DNA of 64,000 nt from Halorussus sp. MSC15.2. GTDB taxonomy: Archaea; Halobacteriota; Halobacteria; Halobacteriales; Haladaptataceae. The translations under genes were made by a program, and so were the position numbers. Positions 54,356 to 62,675 of the stretch are shown in pieces; within the stretch, counting starts at the first letter, position 1, and each line of letters opens with the position of its first letter. A model generated the notes under the pieces. It did no database searches and had not been told where the DNA came from. It saw only the letters and a program-made list of their open reading frames with translations. The stretch spans positions 124,001 to 188,000 of the forward strand of contig NZ_VSLZ01000006.1 of assembly GCF_010747475.1 (NCBI RefSeq), read 5' to 3'.

Positions 54356-54637
54356 TCACGTCGTCTCGACGTGGACGTCTCGTATCTCGTCGATTTCCAT
54401 CGGGAGGCGGTCCTGAATCGCTCGCGTCGTCATCGGGGAGATGCCGCAGTCGCCGCACGCTCCGGAGAGCTGAATCCATACGGCACCGGACTCGGTATCG
54501 ACCTCCTGGATTGCAGCGTTCCCGCCGTGCATCGCAATCTGGGGGAAGTTCCGCCGGAGAAACGCGGCAACGTCGTTCGCGAGCTTCTCGCCATCGTTGT
54601 CGAATGAGTCCGGACCGTTCCGGTTGTCTGCGCCCAT
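54356..54637 (-). CDS. NifU-like C-terminal domain protein
   Basis: A 93-aa NifU-C/Nfu-type scaffold. The iron-sulfur motif GACGDCGISPMT gives CxxC, and the helix NDVAAFLRRNFPQIAMHGGN and strand AVWIQLSGA match the family. It transfers Fe-S clusters to target proteins. It lies 63 bp upstream of the broken molybdopterin gene and near the RIC gene, in line with an Fe-S repair theme. Confidence 0.82.
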   Translation of the reverse strand: MGADNRNGPDSFDNDGEKLANDVAAFLRRNFPQIAMHGGNAAIQEVDTESGAVWIQLSGACGDCGISPMTTRAIQDRLPMEIDEIRDVHVETT

Positions 54638-54820
54638 ACCGACAGTATCGGTAACAACTGTTGTACGACTTTACCCGAATACGTTCCGCCGAGCGAGAAG
54701 TTCGAGTACCGTGAATACGTTCGGGAGAACTGGCCCGGGTTACTGTCTCACAGTCGTCGGAGCAGTACTCGGCATCCGAACTGGACGCTCGGAGGAGAGT
54801 GACGGTCCAGTTCGGCCTCG

Positions 54821-55294
54821 TTAGGCCGCCTGGACTTCGTTCAGGAGTTCGTCGTACGGCGGTTCGTTCGTGGGGTCGTCGGCAGTCCAATCGTACGTCA
54901 CTGTCCCGTCCTCGTCCAGAACGAACACGGCACGGTTGGCGATTTCGTAGAGTCCGAGTTCCGGGATGTCGATTTCCAAGTCGTACTTCCGAATCGCTTC
55001 CCGATTCATGTCGCTTACGAGGTCGAATTCGACTCCGTGTTCTTCCTGGAACGCCCCGAGCGAGAACGGCGAGTCCGCACTCACCCCGAGAACGGACGCA
55101 CCGGCGTCCCTGAACTCGTCGAGTCTCTCTTGAAGAGCGAGCATCTCGTTCGTACACGGCGGCGTGAACGCGCCCGGAAAGAACGCGAGGACGAGTGGTC
55201 CGTCACCGATGCGGTCTTCGAGGTCGAACGATGCGTGGTCGCTGGTCCCGACGGTCGCTGTGAACGTCGGTGCAGTATCTCCAGTGGCTGGCAT
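54821..55294 (-). CDS. Peroxiredoxin (AhpC/TSA family)
   Basis: A 157-aa thioredoxin-fold peroxiredoxin. The peroxidatic Cys stands in GAFTPPCTNEM (residue about 47), with conserved downstream VSADSPFSLGAFQ. No obvious resolving Cys exists elsewhere, so it acts as a 1-Cys or BCP-like enzyme that needs an external thiol. It reduces hydrogen peroxide or organic peroxides. Usual length for the family. Confidence 0.9.
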   Translation of the reverse strand: MPATGDTAPTFTATVGTSDHASFDLEDRIGDGPLVLAFFPGAFTPPCTNEMLALQERLDEFRDAGASVLGVSADSPFSLGAFQEEHGVEFDLVSDMNREAIRKYDLEIDIPELGLYEIANRAVFVLDEDGTVTYDWTADDPTNEPPYDELLNEVQAA

Positions 55295-55349
55295 CGTCTA
55301 CAGCGAACGGCTGTCAAAAAGGTAAACCACTTTACGAATATATTCGGTA

Positions 55350-55416
55350 GCTTATCAGTTGTTGCAAATACGATTCCTGTATTCAGTCTTCGGCGTGATT
55401 TTTTCGTGCCGATTCC
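55350..55416 (-). repeat. Dispersed repeat, copy B (inverted relative to copy A)
   Basis: The minus strand matches 31618-31683. Positions 55350-55375 are a perfect 26-base match to the end of copy A; the rest differs by a few substitutions and one indel. It is located between the peroxiredoxin and the next minus-strand gene. Confidence 0.6.
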
Positions 55417-55437
55417 CGCCACGGCGGTCGAACATCA

Positions 55438-56325
55438 TCACTGTTCGGGCGGACTATTCAGGAGTGCGAGGTGACCTGTCCGGAACTGCGTGAGACGTGG
55501 AACAGTCGCAGTGTAGGGGTCGAACGCAGTGTAGGCGAACGCCTGCCAGAGCACGCGCTCGGGATAGGGCCGGTCGGACAGGTCGACCCCGAGAGACGTT
55601 GCGAACGCGGCGTGGTCAAGTTCGCCGTTCGTCGTCGGAACCGGAACGGGGTTCGGGATGGTATCTAGGTCGAGACCGAACGAGGGGAACAGTTGGTACT
55701 CCGCGCCGGGGGCGGGATGGTGGAGTTCTCGCTCTCCGGGGAATCGAACGACCAGTTCGGGAGTGACAGTCACCGTTCCGTCGCCGTCCGCGCGTTCTAC
55801 CGTCTGCTCCGAGAGCGACACACGCCGTCGAGTGCCGCTGGAAACGGTGTACTCGGTCCCGTCGGCCAACAGTTCAAGCCGTGATGCCGTCACCTCCCGG
55901 ACTCGAACGTCGGGGACGGAGTACGACCGGACGAACGCCGTCGTCGAATCCCCGCCGACAGTCCCTTCGACGACGACCTCGGTCTCCCCACGACGGGAGA
56001 CGAAGTCGGGCGTGTACGGACGACCTTCCTCGACGACCGATAGGGTGTCCGTCGTCGCACAGACGCCCTGCCAATCTGGTTGCTCGCTCGTCCCCGTGTC
56101 GAGCGTTGGACGCCAGTAGAAGACCCGATGGCCACCGTCGTACTCGTATGGAATCGCGTCCGGAAAAAACGACTCGCCGTATCTGGTCGGGTCGAGATTC
56201 GGGTGTTCGAGTTTGAGTTCGACGTACGGAAGCGTCTCGACCATCGGAGTCAACCAGTCGGTACGTGCTGATTGTCTCCAACTGATTTCGGTCGTACTGC
56301 TCTCTGTCGCCGTCGTATCGTTCAT
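55438..56325 (-). CDS. Uncharacterised 295-aa soluble protein
   Basis: The ATG at 56325 (MNDTTATESSTTEISWRQSA) is preferred to a start 14 codons upstream. The protein is beta-rich with no signal peptide. Recognisable blocks are LPYVELKLEHPNLDPTRYGE, then YEYDGGHRVFYWRPTLDTG and FPSFGLDLDTIPNPVPVPTT. I do not recognise the family and see no catalytic motif. It is divergent from the four-repeat DUF2249 gene. Its GC-rich codon use fits the surrounding block. Confidence 0.6.
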   Translation of the reverse strand: MNDTTATESSTTEISWRQSARTDWLTPMVETLPYVELKLEHPNLDPTRYGESFFPDAIPYEYDGGHRVFYWRPTLDTGTSEQPDWQGVCATTDTLSVVEEGRPYTPDFVSRRGETEVVVEGTVGGDSTTAFVRSYSVPDVRVREVTASRLELLADGTEYTVSSGTRRRVSLSEQTVERADGDGTVTVTPELVVRFPGERELHHPAPGAEYQLFPSFGLDLDTIPNPVPVPTTNGELDHAAFATSLGVDLSDRPYPERVLWQAFAYTAFDPYTATVPRLTQFRTGHLALLNSPPEQ

Positions 56326-56488
56326 CAGGTCGGAGATGGGACTACGGATACGAAACCCTGTCCGCATATATGTTCGAGCGAGGGTTCGAGTGCTTTTCAG
56401 TACTTTTGCAGTGAACGCTCGGACAATCGGCCGAATTCATTCGGGAGAGAACCTATTGGCGGACGGTTCGACCTCCTCGGTAGAGACG

Positions 56489-57538
56489 ATGGTATCCAGA
56501 ATCGACGTTCGCGAGCGGGCGGCCGACGAGTGCCGTGAGCAAATCCGGGAGGACCTGCGGGACATCAGCGCCGGTGAGACGGCGACTATCGTGGCCCACC
56601 ACGATGTCGAGGCGGCGCTGTATCAGTACCAAATCAAACGTGGCGAGACGCTAGACTGGCAGTACGAGACTGCAGGACCCGACGTCTGGGAAATCCGCGT
56701 GAGTAAATCGGAGCACTCTGGGGGACGGACTGGCCTGACCGAGTTCGACGTGCGGGAGATGCCGCCGCGAAAGCGCCACTCGGTACTCCTCGAAACCTTC
56801 GAGCTACTCGACCCCGACGAAGGGTTCGTCTTGGTGAACGACCACGACCCGAAGCCGCTCTACCACGAACTTCGCTCTACCCGCGGCGACATCTTCGAGT
56901 GGGAGTACACGAACCGCGACTCGCAGGCGTGGAAGGTCGAGATACGCAAGACCGACGACGGTGAGACGGAAGACGACGACGAAGTACAGGCGAAATTCGA
57001 CGTCCGTGAAATCCCGAAACAGGAGCGACACCCGACGATTCATCACCGGTACGGAAACCTCGAGGACGGCAACGCAATGGAGATAACCTCCCCGCACGAA
57101 CCCCGTCCGCTCCACCGGGAGTTCCGACAGCGATACGGACAGTCGTTCTCGTGGGAGGTTCGAGAGAGGGAGCCGGGTCGCTGTCGCGTCCGTATCACGA
57201 AAGGAGGCCAGTCGAGTACCGACGACGAAGAGTCCTCGCAGTCGGCCGACGTGTCGATGGACGTGACGGAGGAACTGGACGTTCGGGACCTGCCGCCCGC
57301 CCAACGCCACCAACAGATTTTCGAGGCGTACGAGCAACTTCAGTCGGGTGAGGCGTTCGTCTTGGTGAACGACCACGACCCGAAACCGCTCTATCACCAG
57401 TTCGAAGCGGAAACCGGGAGCGAGTTCCGATGGGAGTACCGGCAGCGAGACCCCAACGAATTTAGGGTTCTCATCGGCAGAGACGGCGCGACCGAGAGCG
57501 ACTCCTCGGCATCCGAGACCACGAAAGCGCCGTTTTGA
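56489..57538 (+). CDS. Four-repeat DUF2249 protein
   Basis: A 349-aa protein with four tandem DUF2249 (SirA/TusA-fold) units: about 5-70 (ADECREQIREDLRDISAGET), 80-155 (FDVREMPPRKRHSVLLETFE), 175-240 (FDVREIPKQERHPTIHHRYG) and 265-335 (LDVRDLPPAQRHQQIFEAYE). Units 2 and 4 share the full LVNDHDPKPLYH motif; unit 3 is altered to ITSPHEPRPLHR and unit 1 to VAHHDVEAALYQ. The ATG at 56489 is chosen because the repeats begin there. DUF2249 proteins accompany denitrification and NO-response genes; the exact role is unknown. Four copies is unusually many. Confidence 0.82.
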   Translation: MVSRIDVRERAADECREQIREDLRDISAGETATIVAHHDVEAALYQYQIKRGETLDWQYETAGPDVWEIRVSKSEHSGGRTGLTEFDVREMPPRKRHSVLLETFELLDPDEGFVLVNDHDPKPLYHELRSTRGDIFEWEYTNRDSQAWKVEIRKTDDGETEDDDEVQAKFDVREIPKQERHPTIHHRYGNLEDGNAMEITSPHEPRPLHREFRQRYGQSFSWEVREREPGRCRVRITKGGQSSTDDEESSQSADVSMDVTEELDVRDLPPAQRHQQIFEAYEQLQSGEAFVLVNDHDPKPLYHQFEAETGSEFRWEYRQRDPNEFRVLIGRDGATESDSSASETTKAPF

Positions 57539-57651
57539 ACGTTCGGGTCCGGATGCCCCAGCCACGGGGAGTCCAGAACGTCTCGGAGTTGTTCGGGTGA
57601 ATTCCTATGTCCCCCGAGAGAATCAGTACGAGTACACGAAGGGTGATTCGA

Positions 57652-58365
57652 ATGACTACGACAACAATTGATTCGGAACGGAGCCTCGGCGTTCTCGTCG
57701 AGGAGAACCCGGAATTCGCCCGCGTTTTCGAGTCCTTCGGCATCGATTTCTGCTGTGGGGGAGACGCCTCCCTCGAAACCGCGTGTGCAGAAGCGGGCCT
57801 CGAACTGTCCACGGTTCGTGACGAACTGGCGACAGTGAAGGATAGCGACGGTAACCAAGACTGGGAAACGATGTCGGACCTCGTCGACACCATCGTCTCC
57901 GAACACCACGAGTATCTCCGCGAGGAGCTTCCAGCACTGGAGGACCTCGTTCGGAAGGTCGTGAGCGTTCACGGGGAGAATCACCCGGAACTGCAGCGAG
58001 TCGGAGAGGAGTTCTCCGACCTTGCCGAGGCGATGCAGACGCACATCTCCGAGGAGGAAGACGAGGCGTTCTTGCTCGTCGAGAAACTCGACCGGGGCGA
58101 CCCACTCACAGAGTCTGAAGTGGCGACGCTCCGGGAAGAGATAGATAACTTCGAGGACGACCACGAGGAGACTGCAGCACGTCTCGAGCAAATCGAGGCG
58201 TTGACCGACGGATACGCGGTCCCGGACGACGCCTGTCCGAGTTACCGCAACATGCTCGCCCGTCTCGAAGAACTCGAACGAGACACCCACATGCACGTCC
58301 ATCGAGAGAACAACATATTGTTCCCCAGAGCCGAGCAGGAGCTATCGACCGCTACCCGGAGCTGA
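57652..58365 (+). CDS. RIC-family di-iron protein (ScdA/YtfE-like)
   Basis: A 237-aa protein. The N-terminal DUF542 domain carries SFGIDFCCGGDASLETAC with the paired Cys (residues about 34-35). The hemerythrin-like domain follows with His in EHHEYLREELPALEDLV, VHGENHPELQR, QTHISEEED, DHEETAARL and HMHVHRENNILFPR. It repairs Fe-S clusters damaged by NO or oxidants. The ATG at 57652 is preferred; the upstream in-frame residues are not family-like. It follows the DUF2249 protein by 113 bp on the same strand. Confidence 0.9.
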   Translation: MTTTTIDSERSLGVLVEENPEFARVFESFGIDFCCGGDASLETACAEAGLELSTVRDELATVKDSDGNQDWETMSDLVDTIVSEHHEYLREELPALEDLVRKVVSVHGENHPELQRVGEEFSDLAEAMQTHISEEEDEAFLLVEKLDRGDPLTESEVATLREEIDNFEDDHEETAARLEQIEALTDGYAVPDDACPSYRNMLARLEELERDTHMHVHRENNILFPRAEQELSTATRS

Positions 58366-58655
58366 ATTTCACTGGCTAATCGATTCATTCCATCGCGCCA
58401 CGCCGCCCCCAACACGAGTCAACTCCAGCTACTCGACCGAAGGACGTAGACACCGGGTTCGGGTACAAAATTCTGCGTTTTCGAGGTTCGTCCCCGTCTG
58501 GTCCGGGACTCCGGGTGACTCTCGAATGTTCAGCTGGCCCTCGTCAGTCGCTACGTGTCCCGGTACTACCTGTACGGGGGAGTCGATTGACGCGAACATA
58601 TCCGTGAGGGGACTTAGTTTCGGCGAGCCTCATTCACGCATAGGGTGATTCCGTA
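58366..58655. other. Spacer before the CopD-like gene
   Basis: No gene is supported. The sequence is GC-rich and has a weak TATA-like box (about 58614-58620, ACTTAGT) upstream of the ATG at 58656. Confidence 0.3.
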
Positions 58656-59642
58656 ATGACCGACCCACCGACGGAGGTTGGTGCGACCGTCGCGAACGAC
58701 CTCTTCAACAAGTACGTCCTTCCGAAAGTTGCGCTCGCCGTAATCCTGACCGCCTCACTCGTCGGGACGTGGGTGACCGGCCGTCTCGCCAATCAGACGG
58801 GAGTCGTCGTCACGCTGGCTAAGTGGTCGTCCTTCGCGTCTCTCGGCGTTCTCACCGGCGGACTCGTCTGGAAGCACCTCTTCGTTCGCCCGCAGGACCT
58901 CGGGACGGACGCGAGCGAGTACTGTGCGGAGATGTACTCGCGGTTCGACAGCGTGGCTACCGTCGCCGTGGTCGTACTCGTGTCGAGCGGACCGTTCGTC
59001 CTCGCCGAGTACGTCTCGTCTCTCGGAACCAACCGACTCGTAGTCAGTCTCGGAGTGCTGTCCTCGCTCTTGCTCGGAACGACGGTCGTGACGGTGCGCC
59101 GTTCGGCGTCCGTCGACGAACAGTTCAGGAGCCCGGCCGGACTCTTCACGATGACTCTGGCACTGGTGGTCGTCGTCGCCACGGCGCTTGCGGAGGTGAG
59201 TCTTCGGGGATTCGACCCACTAGCCGCGGCCGTTCGGGTACTGCACCTCCTCGCGTTCGCCGCGTGGGTCGGAGGTGCGGTCTGGAACATCTTCGTCGCC
59301 GTCCCGACGGGACAGCACCATCCCACGGCGGACGTCGTTCGGGCCGCCGGCGAGCAACTCGAACGTTTCCGGTAGGCGGTTCGGTTCATCATCCCGACGC
59401 TGTTCCTGACGGGCCTGTACCAAGCCGTCGACGCGTTCGGTATCTCCGTGGGGAACTACCTCGGCAATCTCGTGGGGCTTGCCGTCCTCGCCAAAATCGG
59501 GTTCGTCGGTCTACTGGTCGTCATCTTCAAGCTCTGCCCGATGTGGCGGGCCTGCTCGCCTATCGACGGGGTCTGCGAACTCGAAGACCTCGGGAACGGG
59601 CGACCGTCAGGCGGTTCGGCGGAGGGCGAAGCCGATGACTGA
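58656..59642 (+). pseudogene. CopD-like membrane protein gene with an in-frame TAG
   Basis: The ATG at 58656 starts MTDPPTEVGATVANDLFNKY and gives seven hydrophobic helices (LAVILTASLVGTWVTG, FASLGVLTGGLVWKHLF, ATVAVVVLVSSGPFVLA and others). After EQLERFR, a TAG at 59373-59375 interrupts. AVRFIIPTLFLTGLYQAVDA then continues in frame to KLCPMWRACSPIDGVCELED and stop at 59642. TGG-to-TAG is likely (RFR-W-AVRF context). CopD-like proteins bind heme or copper in copper- or NO-related loci. The truncated 239-aa form may still be made. Confidence 0.75.
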
Positions 59643-59919
59643 GTCCGAAGTCCCCGAGACGGGTCCGGACGTCGAACCAGATATGACTGTCGACAATCGG
59701 GGACGCGGCTGTGCGAGCGGAATCGCTCGCGTCCAGCGCGCGCTGGAGGACCTCGAGGACGGTGCGATACTACGAATTCAAAGTACGGACAAGCGGGCGA
59801 AACAGGAGTACCGGCAGCTAGCCGCACAGACCAATCACGAACTTCTTGGAATCGAGACGAACCGGAGCGGTCTCCTCCGAAAGGAGTACACGACGTACCT
59901 CGAAATCCACCACGGGTGA
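59635..59919 (+). CDS. TusA-like protein with altered CPxP motif
   Basis: A 94-aa TusA-family protein: VDNRGRGCASGIARVQRALE keeps the sulfur-carrying Cys but replaces the CPxP prolines (GCASG). DGAILRIQSTDKRAKQEYRQ and NHELLGIETNRS follow the fold. The ATG overlaps the end of the CopD-like frame by 8 bp, so it belongs to the same operon. It probably carries sulfur or metal rather than acting as a normal TusA; function uncertain. Confidence 0.75.
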   Translation: MTESEVPETGPDVEPDMTVDNRGRGCASGIARVQRALEDLEDGAILRIQSTDKRAKQEYRQLAAQTNHELLGIETNRSGLLRKEYTTYLEIHHG

Positions 59920-60237
59920 CCGACAGCCGACTGCAGAACGTACTGACAGTGCACAGAACACCGACCGAACGCAGTGGAAACGGCTGGCCGACGCCGACCC
60001 TTTCGACACTTTCGACCCAGTAATGACGGCGCTTGCCGTCGTCGAGACGAGCGAATCATTCCGCGTTCTGTCTCTCGATGTGGACCGGCCTACAGACACA
60101 TTCGGTATCGCGCAGGTCGCCCCCGACGTACGGAGGTCTGTCTAACGACCCACTACGTCATGGGTACGGCCGAAATAGGAATCAGATGCTGTCCGCGAAA
60201 GTCCCAGGCGGCGTCGCGTCGCCGTAGCGAACCGCTG
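59920..60237. other. Spacer with an uncertain short frame
   Basis: A plus-strand frame (about 59974-60145; MTALAVVETSESFRVLSLDV in its later part) has coding-like content but no good start, TATA box or family. It may be the ruin of a gene. The region ends before a converging DUF2249 gene. Confidence 0.3.
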
Positions 60238-60471
60238 TCACTCTTTGCGCAGTGTAGCGATGAACTGGTCAGGTCCGATTTTGTCGACGACGTATTCGTC
60301 TGCGTCGAACGACTCGACTTCGGTCCGCATCTGGTAGTACAATGGTTTCGGGTCGTGGTCGTTGACGAGCGTGAGGGCCTCACCGCTATCGAGTTCGTCG
60401 AACGCGTCGAAGACCTTCGGGTGGCGCTCCGGCGGCGGTACGTCGCGGAGGTCGAGTGTCTGGCCGGTCAT
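60238..60471 (-). CDS. Single-domain DUF2249 protein
   Basis: A 77-aa protein: TLDLRDVPPPERHPKVFDAF, then ALTLVNDHDPKPLYYQMRTE. This has the full motif of repeats 2 and 4 of the 349-aa protein. The ATG at 60471 is preferred over a start six codons upstream. It may interact with the long four-repeat protein or exchange subunits with it. Confidence 0.85.
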   Translation of the reverse strand: MTGQTLDLRDVPPPERHPKVFDAFDELDSGEALTLVNDHDPKPLYYQMRTEVESFDADEYVVDKIGPDQFIATLRKE

Positions 60472-60747
60472 GTGGACGGAACTGGACACGCTACCCCTGA
60501 AACCCTTATCACGAACAGGTTCGCGGACGAGTGTACTGCTGTCCCCGCGTCCGCCACGCTTGTTCCCCAGCGTGACGACGGCGTTCTGGCGGTGGCGCGC
60601 CGTCCGGGGGTCGGAGCCTTCGAGTTCTTCCCCGCCGCCGGTGGCAGTCTCACACTCGTCAGCACGTGGCCGCTCCGGCGTGGTCAGTGGAGGAAGCGGT
60701 ACTGTTCGAGACGCTGCCCCTCGTCTACTGCACGCTCTTCGGAGGGG

Positions 60748-61266
60748 TTACTGGAGGGTGCCGAATCCCTCGTCTTCCATCAACTCGGCGATGAGTTCGG
60801 GGTTCTGGAACGCCGCGAGAAGCGCGAACTCGCGCGCGTCCGTCTTCGAAACCTCGCTCGTTCCGAGCAGGTCGGCGAGTTCACTCCGGAACTCCGCCTC
60901 TTGGTCGGCGACCTTGTCTCGCACGTGGATTTCGAGACGGGTGTCCCGTTCGTCACCGACGTTACTCCGCCGGACGAAGTACGGATACTCGTCCGGGGAG
61001 GCAGTAGATTCACTGGACTCCCGCGCTGAACCTCGGCCGGTCGTCGATTGCTCGGACCGGTTCTCGCTCTCCGACGACGTCCTGCTCGGTGACGCCGACG
61101 GGGACTCACTCGCCGATGCTGGTGTGGACTCTTCGGTCGAAGTCGATTCAGCCTCGCTTTCCTCCACGTGCGCCTCTGCCGTTTCCGCAGCGTCGTCTTC
61201 GTCGCCGTCCCCGTCGTCGTCACCGCCGAAATCGAGGTTTCCGGACCCGGATTTGAAGTTGCTCAT
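60748..61266 (-). CDS. ParB-like partner of the ParA ATPase
   Basis: A 172-aa protein. The N-terminal 90 residues are a low-complexity acidic/Ser-Thr-rich tail (DDDGDGDEDDAAETAEAHVE). The C-terminal part is a small helical domain (RDTRLEIHVRDKVADQEAEF, then LADLLGTSEVSKTDAREFAL), perhaps DNA-binding. Its ATG overlaps the ParA stop (61263-61266), so the two are coupled. It probably loads on the iteron array, although no standard ParB HTH was recognised. Confidence 0.65.
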   Translation of the reverse strand: MSNFKSGSGNLDFGGDDDGDGDEDDAAETAEAHVEESEAESTSTEESTPASASESPSASPSRTSSESENRSEQSTTGRGSARESSESTASPDEYPYFVRRSNVGDERDTRLEIHVRDKVADQEAEFRSELADLLGTSEVSKTDAREFALLAAFQNPELIAELMEDEGFGTLQ

Positions 61267-62255
61267 GCGGTCGCCTCCGTTTCCTCCTCCTCTCGCAGGT
61301 CGATGACTCGGTTCTCGGACTCCAGAATATCGAGTTCTAACACCGGATTGACGTCAGTGTCGAACGTGTCCACCGCGACGAATCGGGCGAGTTCGTACAG
61401 TCTCTCCAGCGTCTCGATTTCTCTGTCGCGCACCCGCCGTTGGCCCGGTTCACTCACCATCTCGCCGTCCCTCTCGAAGGTCTTCCACCGTTCTTCGACG
61501 ACTTTGAACGCCGACCCCCTCGCCTCCCACATCGCGTCCATGAGGCTTTCGCGGTTCCCGATGGCGACTGGCGTGGCGAACGCCTCCGTGTCCTCGAACT
61601 GCTGTTGGTACTGGCGGTGAGCGTTCGTTTGGCCGACGCCCGAGGGGACGACGCAGGAGAGTCCGATTTCGATGTCCAATTGGGTCTCCATGTTCCCGAC
61701 GAGTTCTTCGAGTCCTTCCAAACTCAGGTTGCCTTTTCCGGCGGGCTTGACGGGCGCGACGAGCGTCCGCAGTGCGAAAATCGCGTTGTAGAGCAGGTCT
61801 TCCGCCCGCGCGTTGGGGTCGATGAGAATCGCGTCGTACTCCTGATGGAGTTCCTGTTTCTCCCAGAGTAGCTCGTGGAGGAGTTCGAACCGTGGGTAAT
61901 CGTCGCGACTCATGTTCTGCATCCCGGTCTCGTAGGATATCTTCTGCTCCAGATTCGAGGTGAAGTCTCCGAGCATGTCGTGACTCGGGACGATATCGAC
62001 GCCTTCGGCCGTCGTTTCGATGAGGTCGTCGAAGTCGCCGTCCGGCATGTCGAGGATATGTTTGACCAGATTGTCAGCATCTGGTTCGCTTCGGTGTTCG
62101 CCGGCGTCGAACAGGCTCGTCAGGTTCCCCTCTTGGGGGTCGAGGTCTATCACGAGGGTATTTTGACCCATTCGCTCCAACGCGACGGCGAGGTTGGCCG
62201 TCATCGTCGTCTTGTACGTTCCACCCGACTCGGAGTAGATTACAGTCGTTATCAT
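61263..62255 (-). CDS. ParA-type partition ATPase
   Basis: A 330-aa SojA/ParA-like protein. Walker A reads SESGGTYKTT, with the P-loop Lys present but Ser instead of the first 'signature' Lys of deviant Walker A ATPases. TLVIDLDPQEGNLTSLFD (Walker A') and DAILIDPNARAEDLLYNAIF (Walker B) follow. The C-terminal part (ESLMDAMWEARGSAFKVVEE and after) is helical. It is downstream of a long 13-bp iteron array, which strongly supports plasmid or secondary-chromosome segregation. Confidence 0.85.
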   Translation of the reverse strand: MITTVIYSESGGTYKTTMTANLAVALERMGQNTLVIDLDPQEGNLTSLFDAGEHRSEPDADNLVKHILDMPDGDFDDLIETTAEGVDIVPSHDMLGDFTSNLEQKISYETGMQNMSRDDYPRFELLHELLWEKQELHQEYDAILIDPNARAEDLLYNAIFALRTLVAPVKPAGKGNLSLEGLEELVGNMETQLDIEIGLSCVVPSGVGQTNAHRQYQQQFEDTEAFATPVAIGNRESLMDAMWEARGSAFKVVEERWKTFERDGEMVSEPGQRRVRDREIETLERLYELARFVAVDTFDTDVNPVLELDILESENRVIDLREEEETEATA

Positions 62256-62286
62256 ATCCGCCGGATTTCGCCCGCTGTACTATAAA

Positions 62287-62675
62287 TCTGTGTCAGACAC
62301 ATGGAGCAGATATCTGTGATAGGCGTCTGTCATAGTAGTCTGTAACAGGTATCTGTAATCACTCACGTATGGCGATTAGATAGCATCTATTACAGACTCA
62401 CCATTGGATGTTACAGATGTCTATTACAGACTCACCATTGGATGTTACAGATGTCTATTACAGTCACTGATTACAGACTTTTGTGGCAGACTACTGCATT
62501 CGAATAACACTGTAAACTGTGGTCATATATCTATTATAGTCCTCTGTGACGGGTCATCGTCACCGAATTCTGCCACCCATATCTATTACAGAAATCTATA
62601 ACAGACAGCAATAACAGCCATTCTTCACAGACAGTAATTACAGACAGATGTTGCAGAAGCCCGTGACAGGTAACC
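62287..62675. repeat. 13-bp iteron array upstream of ParA
   Basis: Units follow a 13-bp period. Forward block from 62287: TCTGTGTCAGACA, then TCTGTGATAGGCG (62313), TCTGTCATAGTAG (62326), TCTGTAACAGGTA (62339) and TCTGTAATCACTC (62352). An inverted-sense block has ATTACAG/GTTACAG at 62389, 62410, 62423, 62444, 62457, 62470 and 62483, spaced 13 or 21. A further block has seven units at 62585, 62598, 62611, 62624, 62637, 62650 and 62663. Bases 62386-62453 also form two exact 34-bp tandem copies. This is a candidate partition centromere or replication-control region. Confidence 0.8.

Follow-up and report, generated by a model that had tools for sequence, protein, structure and literature searches.

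A lattice of 13-bp palindromes upstream of parA as the probable centromere of a haloarchaeal plasmid partition module

The window, meaning the whole stretch of 64,000 nucleotides that was analysed, lies on a contig of 236,657 bp from a haloarchaeon of the genus Halorussus. It carries a parA gene, a small partner gene and, upstream of both, an array of short repeats, laid out as follows:

60748–61266, minus strand: partner gene (172 aa), predicted centromere-binding protein; its start overlaps the parA stop by 4 nt
61263–62255, minus strand: parA, encoding a ParA-type ATPase of 330 aa (Pfam AAA_31, E 7e-19; CbiA, 1e-14; both above cut-off)
62281–62286, minus strand: likely parA TATA box, TTTATA, about 28 bp ahead of the ATG, called from sequence
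62292–62298, minus strand: GTCTGAC element, just upstream of the parA TATA box and overlapped by the first full array site
62274–62362: array block 1, with sites at 62287, 62313, 62326 and 62339 and half-sites at 62274 and 62352, all on one 13-bp lattice (matrix and mismatch scans); overlaps the parA core promoter
62386–62490: array block 2, with sites at 62386, 62407, 62420, 62441, 62454 and 62480 (gaps 21/13/21/13/26) and a half-site at 62467; contains the duplication 62386–62453
62530–62670: array block 3, with sites at 62530, 62543, 62582, 62595, 62647 and 62660 and half-sites at 62608, 62621 and 62634, all on one 13-bp lattice

The parA product also matches the ParA-like partition proteins of PHROGs (1e-31), and the ParAs of the haloviruses PhiCh1 and ChaoS9 match it at about 30% only. 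Its Walker A sequence, SESGGTYKTT, does not have the signature lysine of the deviant Walker A motif (KGGxxK[T/S]), which is absent from this protein; serine or alanine occupies the signature-lysine position in loci that have this partner family. The glycine that precedes the P-loop lysine is missing from SESGGTYKTT as well. The Walker A motif begins no more than about 10 residues from the start of the protein, leaving no N-terminal DNA-binding extension, as expected of type Ib modules, in which a short ParA goes with a small RHH-fold (ribbon-helix-helix) partner and a centromere upstream of parA.

The parA TATA box was called by the spacing rule for archaeal promoters, and the sequence suggests that the parA transcript is leaderless. 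The GTCTGAC element next to the box is common to almost all haloarchaeal parA promoters examined, as well as to a cdrS-like gene, and in most of the haloarchaeal parA genes studied, the KGG types included, it is no more than 90 bp away. At nine places in the genome (L124–L132) GTCTGAC precedes a TATA-like box by a few bases, against none for the reversed control, and the genes behind it encode ParA, a short CdrS-like ribbon-helix-helix (RHH) regulator, a bactofilin-like protein, a GTPase and a coiled-coil protein. GTCTGAC may be the signature of a cell-division regulon; misregulation of soj genes in the absence of CdrS has been reported in Halobacterium (PMC7439475). A search of the open-access literature for published GTCTGAC promoter elements returned nothing relevant.

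The partner begins with an FKSGSGNLDF peptide, continues into a long acidic linker for which no structure is predicted, and ends in a conserved C-terminal domain, in which a strand-like stretch is followed by three confident helices (residues 117–134 and 141–154 at high confidence). Sequence searches of Pfam, NCBIfam, PHROGs and the PDB gave nothing convincing and no consistent Pfam family, a profile of the partner matched none of the solved chains among the PDB sequences, and Foldseek returned no significant match. VIA-align 2 yielded a single weak match to a transcription factor–DNA complex (Z 2.9), which excludes no fold. Against the RHH proteins encoded in this genome, profile comparison reached a probability of 7%, above all 60 shuffles (maximum 4%), and the strand-helix-helix pattern makes an RHH fold plausible. 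Homologues of the partner in dozens of haloarchaeal plasmids are annotated as ‘acyl-CoA dehydrogenase’ in RefSeq, an identity for which the Pfam, NCBIfam and PHROGs searches of the sequence give no support.

Upstream of parA, positions 62274–62670 form a lattice of 13-bp units, each made up of an 11-bp odd palindrome, TCTRTNAYAGA, and 2 further bp; the aligned sites of 30-odd other loci read TCTGTNACAGA-YR. Autocorrelation of 62287–62675 peaks at 13 bp (z 9.2 against dinucleotide-preserving shuffles), with further peaks at 26, 39 and 52, and the 13-bp signal is still at z 8.8 when one copy of the 34-bp duplication is taken out. The same region holds 9 exact occurrences of CTRTNAYAG where 0.09 are expected, and 15 with up to one mismatch where 1.26 are expected. 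A matrix trained on other species, with the window and its closest relatives excluded, finds 16 sites scoring at least 6, where the background rate is 0.85 per kb. Spacings among these sites are 13, 21, 26, 39, 47, 50 and 52 bp, and the three blocks are out of phase with one another because the gaps between sites include 21, 47 and 50 bp. The array is visibly richer in AT than its flanks.

These results bear out most of the original prediction for this region, which had described an array in 13-bp phase with some units 21 bp apart. Its count of ‘at least 18’ units is fair, given 16 matrix sites and the weaker half-sites at 62274, 62352, 62467, 62608, 62621 and 62634 on the same lattices, and the tandem duplication of 34 bp that it placed inside the array is indeed exact (62386–62419 repeated as 62420–62453), being a copy of one 21+13 site pair. 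The description of the units as being of mixed orientation has to be given up: the correlation of the site matrix with its own reverse complement is 1.0, so that each unit is itself a palindrome, the two ‘orientations’ are one, and no two orientations exist in this clade.

Comparison of the partner alignment with 84,980 species genomes gave 41 loci. The window motif lies upstream of parA in every locus whose ParA is at least 72% identical, with up to 18 sites (no more than one mismatch) mostly spaced by multiples of 13 bp. It is nearly absent from five loci with ParAs of about 50% identity, which carry 13-bp repeats of the ACCTAATC type instead, and loci with ParAs of about 40% identity have 13-bp repeats of yet other motifs (TATAGCTATA, CAGTANTACTG, TTTGTNACAAA, TAGTTAGGC and TAATTAATGAA). 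Site number and spacers vary among dozens of species around a constant consensus and pitch. A survey of the 99 parA loci with sufficient upstream sequence (the unclassified L019 and L023 left out) identified 13 or 26 bp as the leading upstream period in 72 of 73 loci whose ParA has serine or alanine for the signature lysine, and in 0/17 loci with canonical KGG ParAs; in the sister clade with WSESGGVGK it was 12 or 24 in 9/9. Control stretches downstream reached a z score of 3 or more at 13 bp in 7/102 cases. The same regularity appears in a held-out set of 39 further loci from other genera and families, chosen solely by homology to the C-terminal domain of the partner. ParA was found in 37 of these and was lysine-less in all 37; the top period was 13 or 26 in 33/37, and z at 13 bp was at least 3 in 29/37, the remaining loci having apparently few units only.

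The array, parA and the partner form the minimal conserved module, all three being present throughout the 30 clade A loci whose flanks were compared, and the partner reading frame overlaps the parA stop by 1–4 nt in nearly all lysine-less loci. The partner profile is found in 47/392 genomes of a phylum sample, all of the same order, and in 154/293 genomes within that order; no relative was detected in viral contigs. The module also occurs on pNRC200 of Halobacterium salinarum NRC-1. Clade A, to which the window motif belongs, spans several haloarchaeal families, which implies transfer of the system from host to host.

A maximum-likelihood ParA tree of 98 rows and ten motif groups requires nine motif changes, the minimum possible, against 57 with shuffled labels. 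Whether systems of one motif share a cell was counted over 48 systems (two identical duplicates and L019 and L023 left out) by motif type, since single linkage on ParA identity merged clades. None of the 52 within-genome pairs had the same motif, where shuffling expects 6.9 (P 5e-5), or 9.1 within genus, the motif types having been drawn from the very loci tested. One Haladaptatus genome holds eight systems with eight motifs. This absence of same-motif pairs looks like the pattern of incompatibility determinants, and suggests that the letters of the motif decide which plasmids coexist. The ParMRC families of Clostridium perfringens display the same pattern, which has been shown to depend on ParR specificity (PMC9426499).

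The nearest named relatives of the host are Halorussus aquaticus and Halorussus limi, and the locus is syntenic with plasmids of both. This synteny supports a secondary replicon as the home of the window, a claim of the original prediction that is further upheld by the retention of the array with parA and the partner across haloarchaeal plasmids. The module of one relative (L042) lies in the chromosome rather than on a plasmid; integration therefore occurs. Genes for DUF2249, TusA-like and RIC (iron-sulfur repair) proteins adjoin the partition module at 54356–60489 and recur on the plasmids of H. aquaticus and H. limi. An Orc1/Cdc6 match on the window's contig (C6 of genome G000, 66610–67712) runs over two frames and could be a disrupted gene. 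The situation differs on contig C10 of the same genome (L142, 66709–70475), where a second lysine-less parA has an Orc1/Cdc6 gene about 1.8 kb away; this contig also carries an array of the TATAGCTATA type. A third copy of the partner (L141, 48138–48365 of contig C11) sits almost at the contig terminus (end 49082), which has probably cut off its parA region, and the strain may possess at least three such systems.

Taken with the ParA/MinD-family ATPase, the adjoining partner in one operon and the repeated cis site, which are the general hallmarks of a ParA module, these observations make it very probable that the array is both the centromere (a parS-like site) and the operator of a haloarchaeal plasmid partition module consisting of the array, parA and the partner. 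The approximately 20 palindromes most likely serve as the plasmid centromere, and the centromere-like character originally proposed for the array agrees with its conservation alongside parA and the partner on haloarchaeal plasmids. In the mechanism that we propose, the C-terminal domain of the partner would bind each 13-bp palindrome as one dimer per unit, and the dimers would build a complex along the lattice. The N-terminal FKSGSG peptide would then touch ParA and stimulate its ATPase, which would carry the plasmid along the nucleoid. With the lattice starting at the parA TATA box, binding of the partner would also be expected to repress the parA operon. The sequence of the unit would act as an address: between sister systems the 13-bp pitch stays constant and the letters change along with ParA and the partner, so that plasmids of different types would ignore each other.

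Several other readings of the array deserve to be weighed against a centromere. It could be an operator only, a large autoregulatory site that keeps expression of parA and the partner low, with segregation taking place at another site. The overlap of the lattice with the parA core promoter and of its first site with the GTCTGAC element is what such an operator would show, but 16–23 sites across about 400 bp extend well past the reach of a promoter, and the exclusion of identical motifs within genomes is more readily explained by a centromere than by a private operator. RHH-type partition operators such as that of pSM19035 also double as the centromere (PMC9499535). On these grounds we regard a purely regulatory role as improbable.

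Still less probable, in our judgement, is a replication origin whose iterons are bound by a Rep or Orc1 protein, the origin-like alternative of the original prediction. Phased repeats of such size are typical of bacterial iteron origins, and the high AT content of the array relative to its surroundings would suit one. However, an Orc1/Cdc6 search and a comparison of flanking genes found no Rep or Orc1 gene near the array: the Orc1/Cdc6 match on the contig, at 66.6–67.7 kb, is about 118 kb from the array at 186.3–186.7 kb, and no gene flanking the module is conserved, none of the families on either side occurring in more than 8 of 30 clade A loci. The motif type, moreover, tracks the ParA clade. 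That the array is a functionless tandem duplication of low-complexity, AT-rich DNA can be given almost no weight. The exact 34-bp duplication proves that local duplication happens, but the same consensus and pitch recur in dozens of species despite differing site numbers and spacers, and in other clades the pitch persists although the letters are unrelated; the conservation data already refute this reading.

With the array read as a centromere, the balance tips slightly towards a broader conclusion, namely that these loci represent an undescribed family of haloarchaeal partition systems, characterized by a ParA without the signature lysine, a new DNA-binding partner family confined to haloarchaea and a centromere lattice of fixed 13-bp (once 12-bp) pitch, the letters of which would be an incompatibility code that keeps up to eight replicons apart in a cell. 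Since four 13-bp units make up about five helical turns, dimers on such a lattice would coil round the DNA, and the superhelix would repeat every four units. We found no description of haloarchaeal centromere arrays in open-access papers, which is no proof of novelty. Haloarchaea have many large plasmids, the segregation and coexistence of which are poorly known, and our analysis offers a defined site, a candidate for the protein that binds it and a way to predict compatibility from the sequence alone for a system found, by its partner, in about half (154/293) of the haloarchaeal genomes searched, as well as correcting a widespread misannotation as acyl-CoA dehydrogenase. It also raises the question of how the P-loop of a ParA without the signature lysine dimerizes and hydrolyses ATP.

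Among known systems, SegAB of Sulfolobus is similar in that the gene of an archaeal ParA homologue is followed and overlapped by that of a DNA-binding partner and segA is preceded by palindromic sites, but SegB binds few imperfect palindromes and no phased array (PMC5120986), and the system is chromosomal. The Sulfolobus plasmid pNOB8 also relies on an archaeal ParA partition system, AspA-ParB-ParA (PMC5120986), in which three proteins, ParB and AspA included, take the place of the two conserved genes here. In the secondary replicons of Deinococcus radiodurans a repeat array lies upstream of the parAB operon as well, but these are bacterial replicons, and their direct repeats have reported origin and parS-like roles (PMC7671480), whereas no Rep or Orc1 gene is near the haloarchaeal array. 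The ParMRC systems of C. perfringens resemble the haloarchaeal ones in being families of one system with differing centromere repeats, where binding specificity sets plasmid compatibility (PMC9426499), although they work with an actin-like ParM motor and ParR in place of a ParA-type ATPase and an archaeal partner. By analogy, the nearest mechanistic model for the haloarchaeal module is ParABS of pSM19035 (Delta and Omega), which joins a ParA ATPase and a small partner to contiguous short repeats that overlap the promoters of the partition genes (PMC9499535). Its parS consists of 7-bp non-palindromic repeats rather than 13-bp, mostly palindromic units, the haloarchaeal ParA differs in having no signature lysine, and we found no sequence relation between the two partners, an RHH fold being plausible for ours. 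The pSM19035 partner is nonetheless predicted to contact ParA through its N-terminus, and at least four contiguous RHH-bound repeats are required there for ParA activation (PMC9499535).
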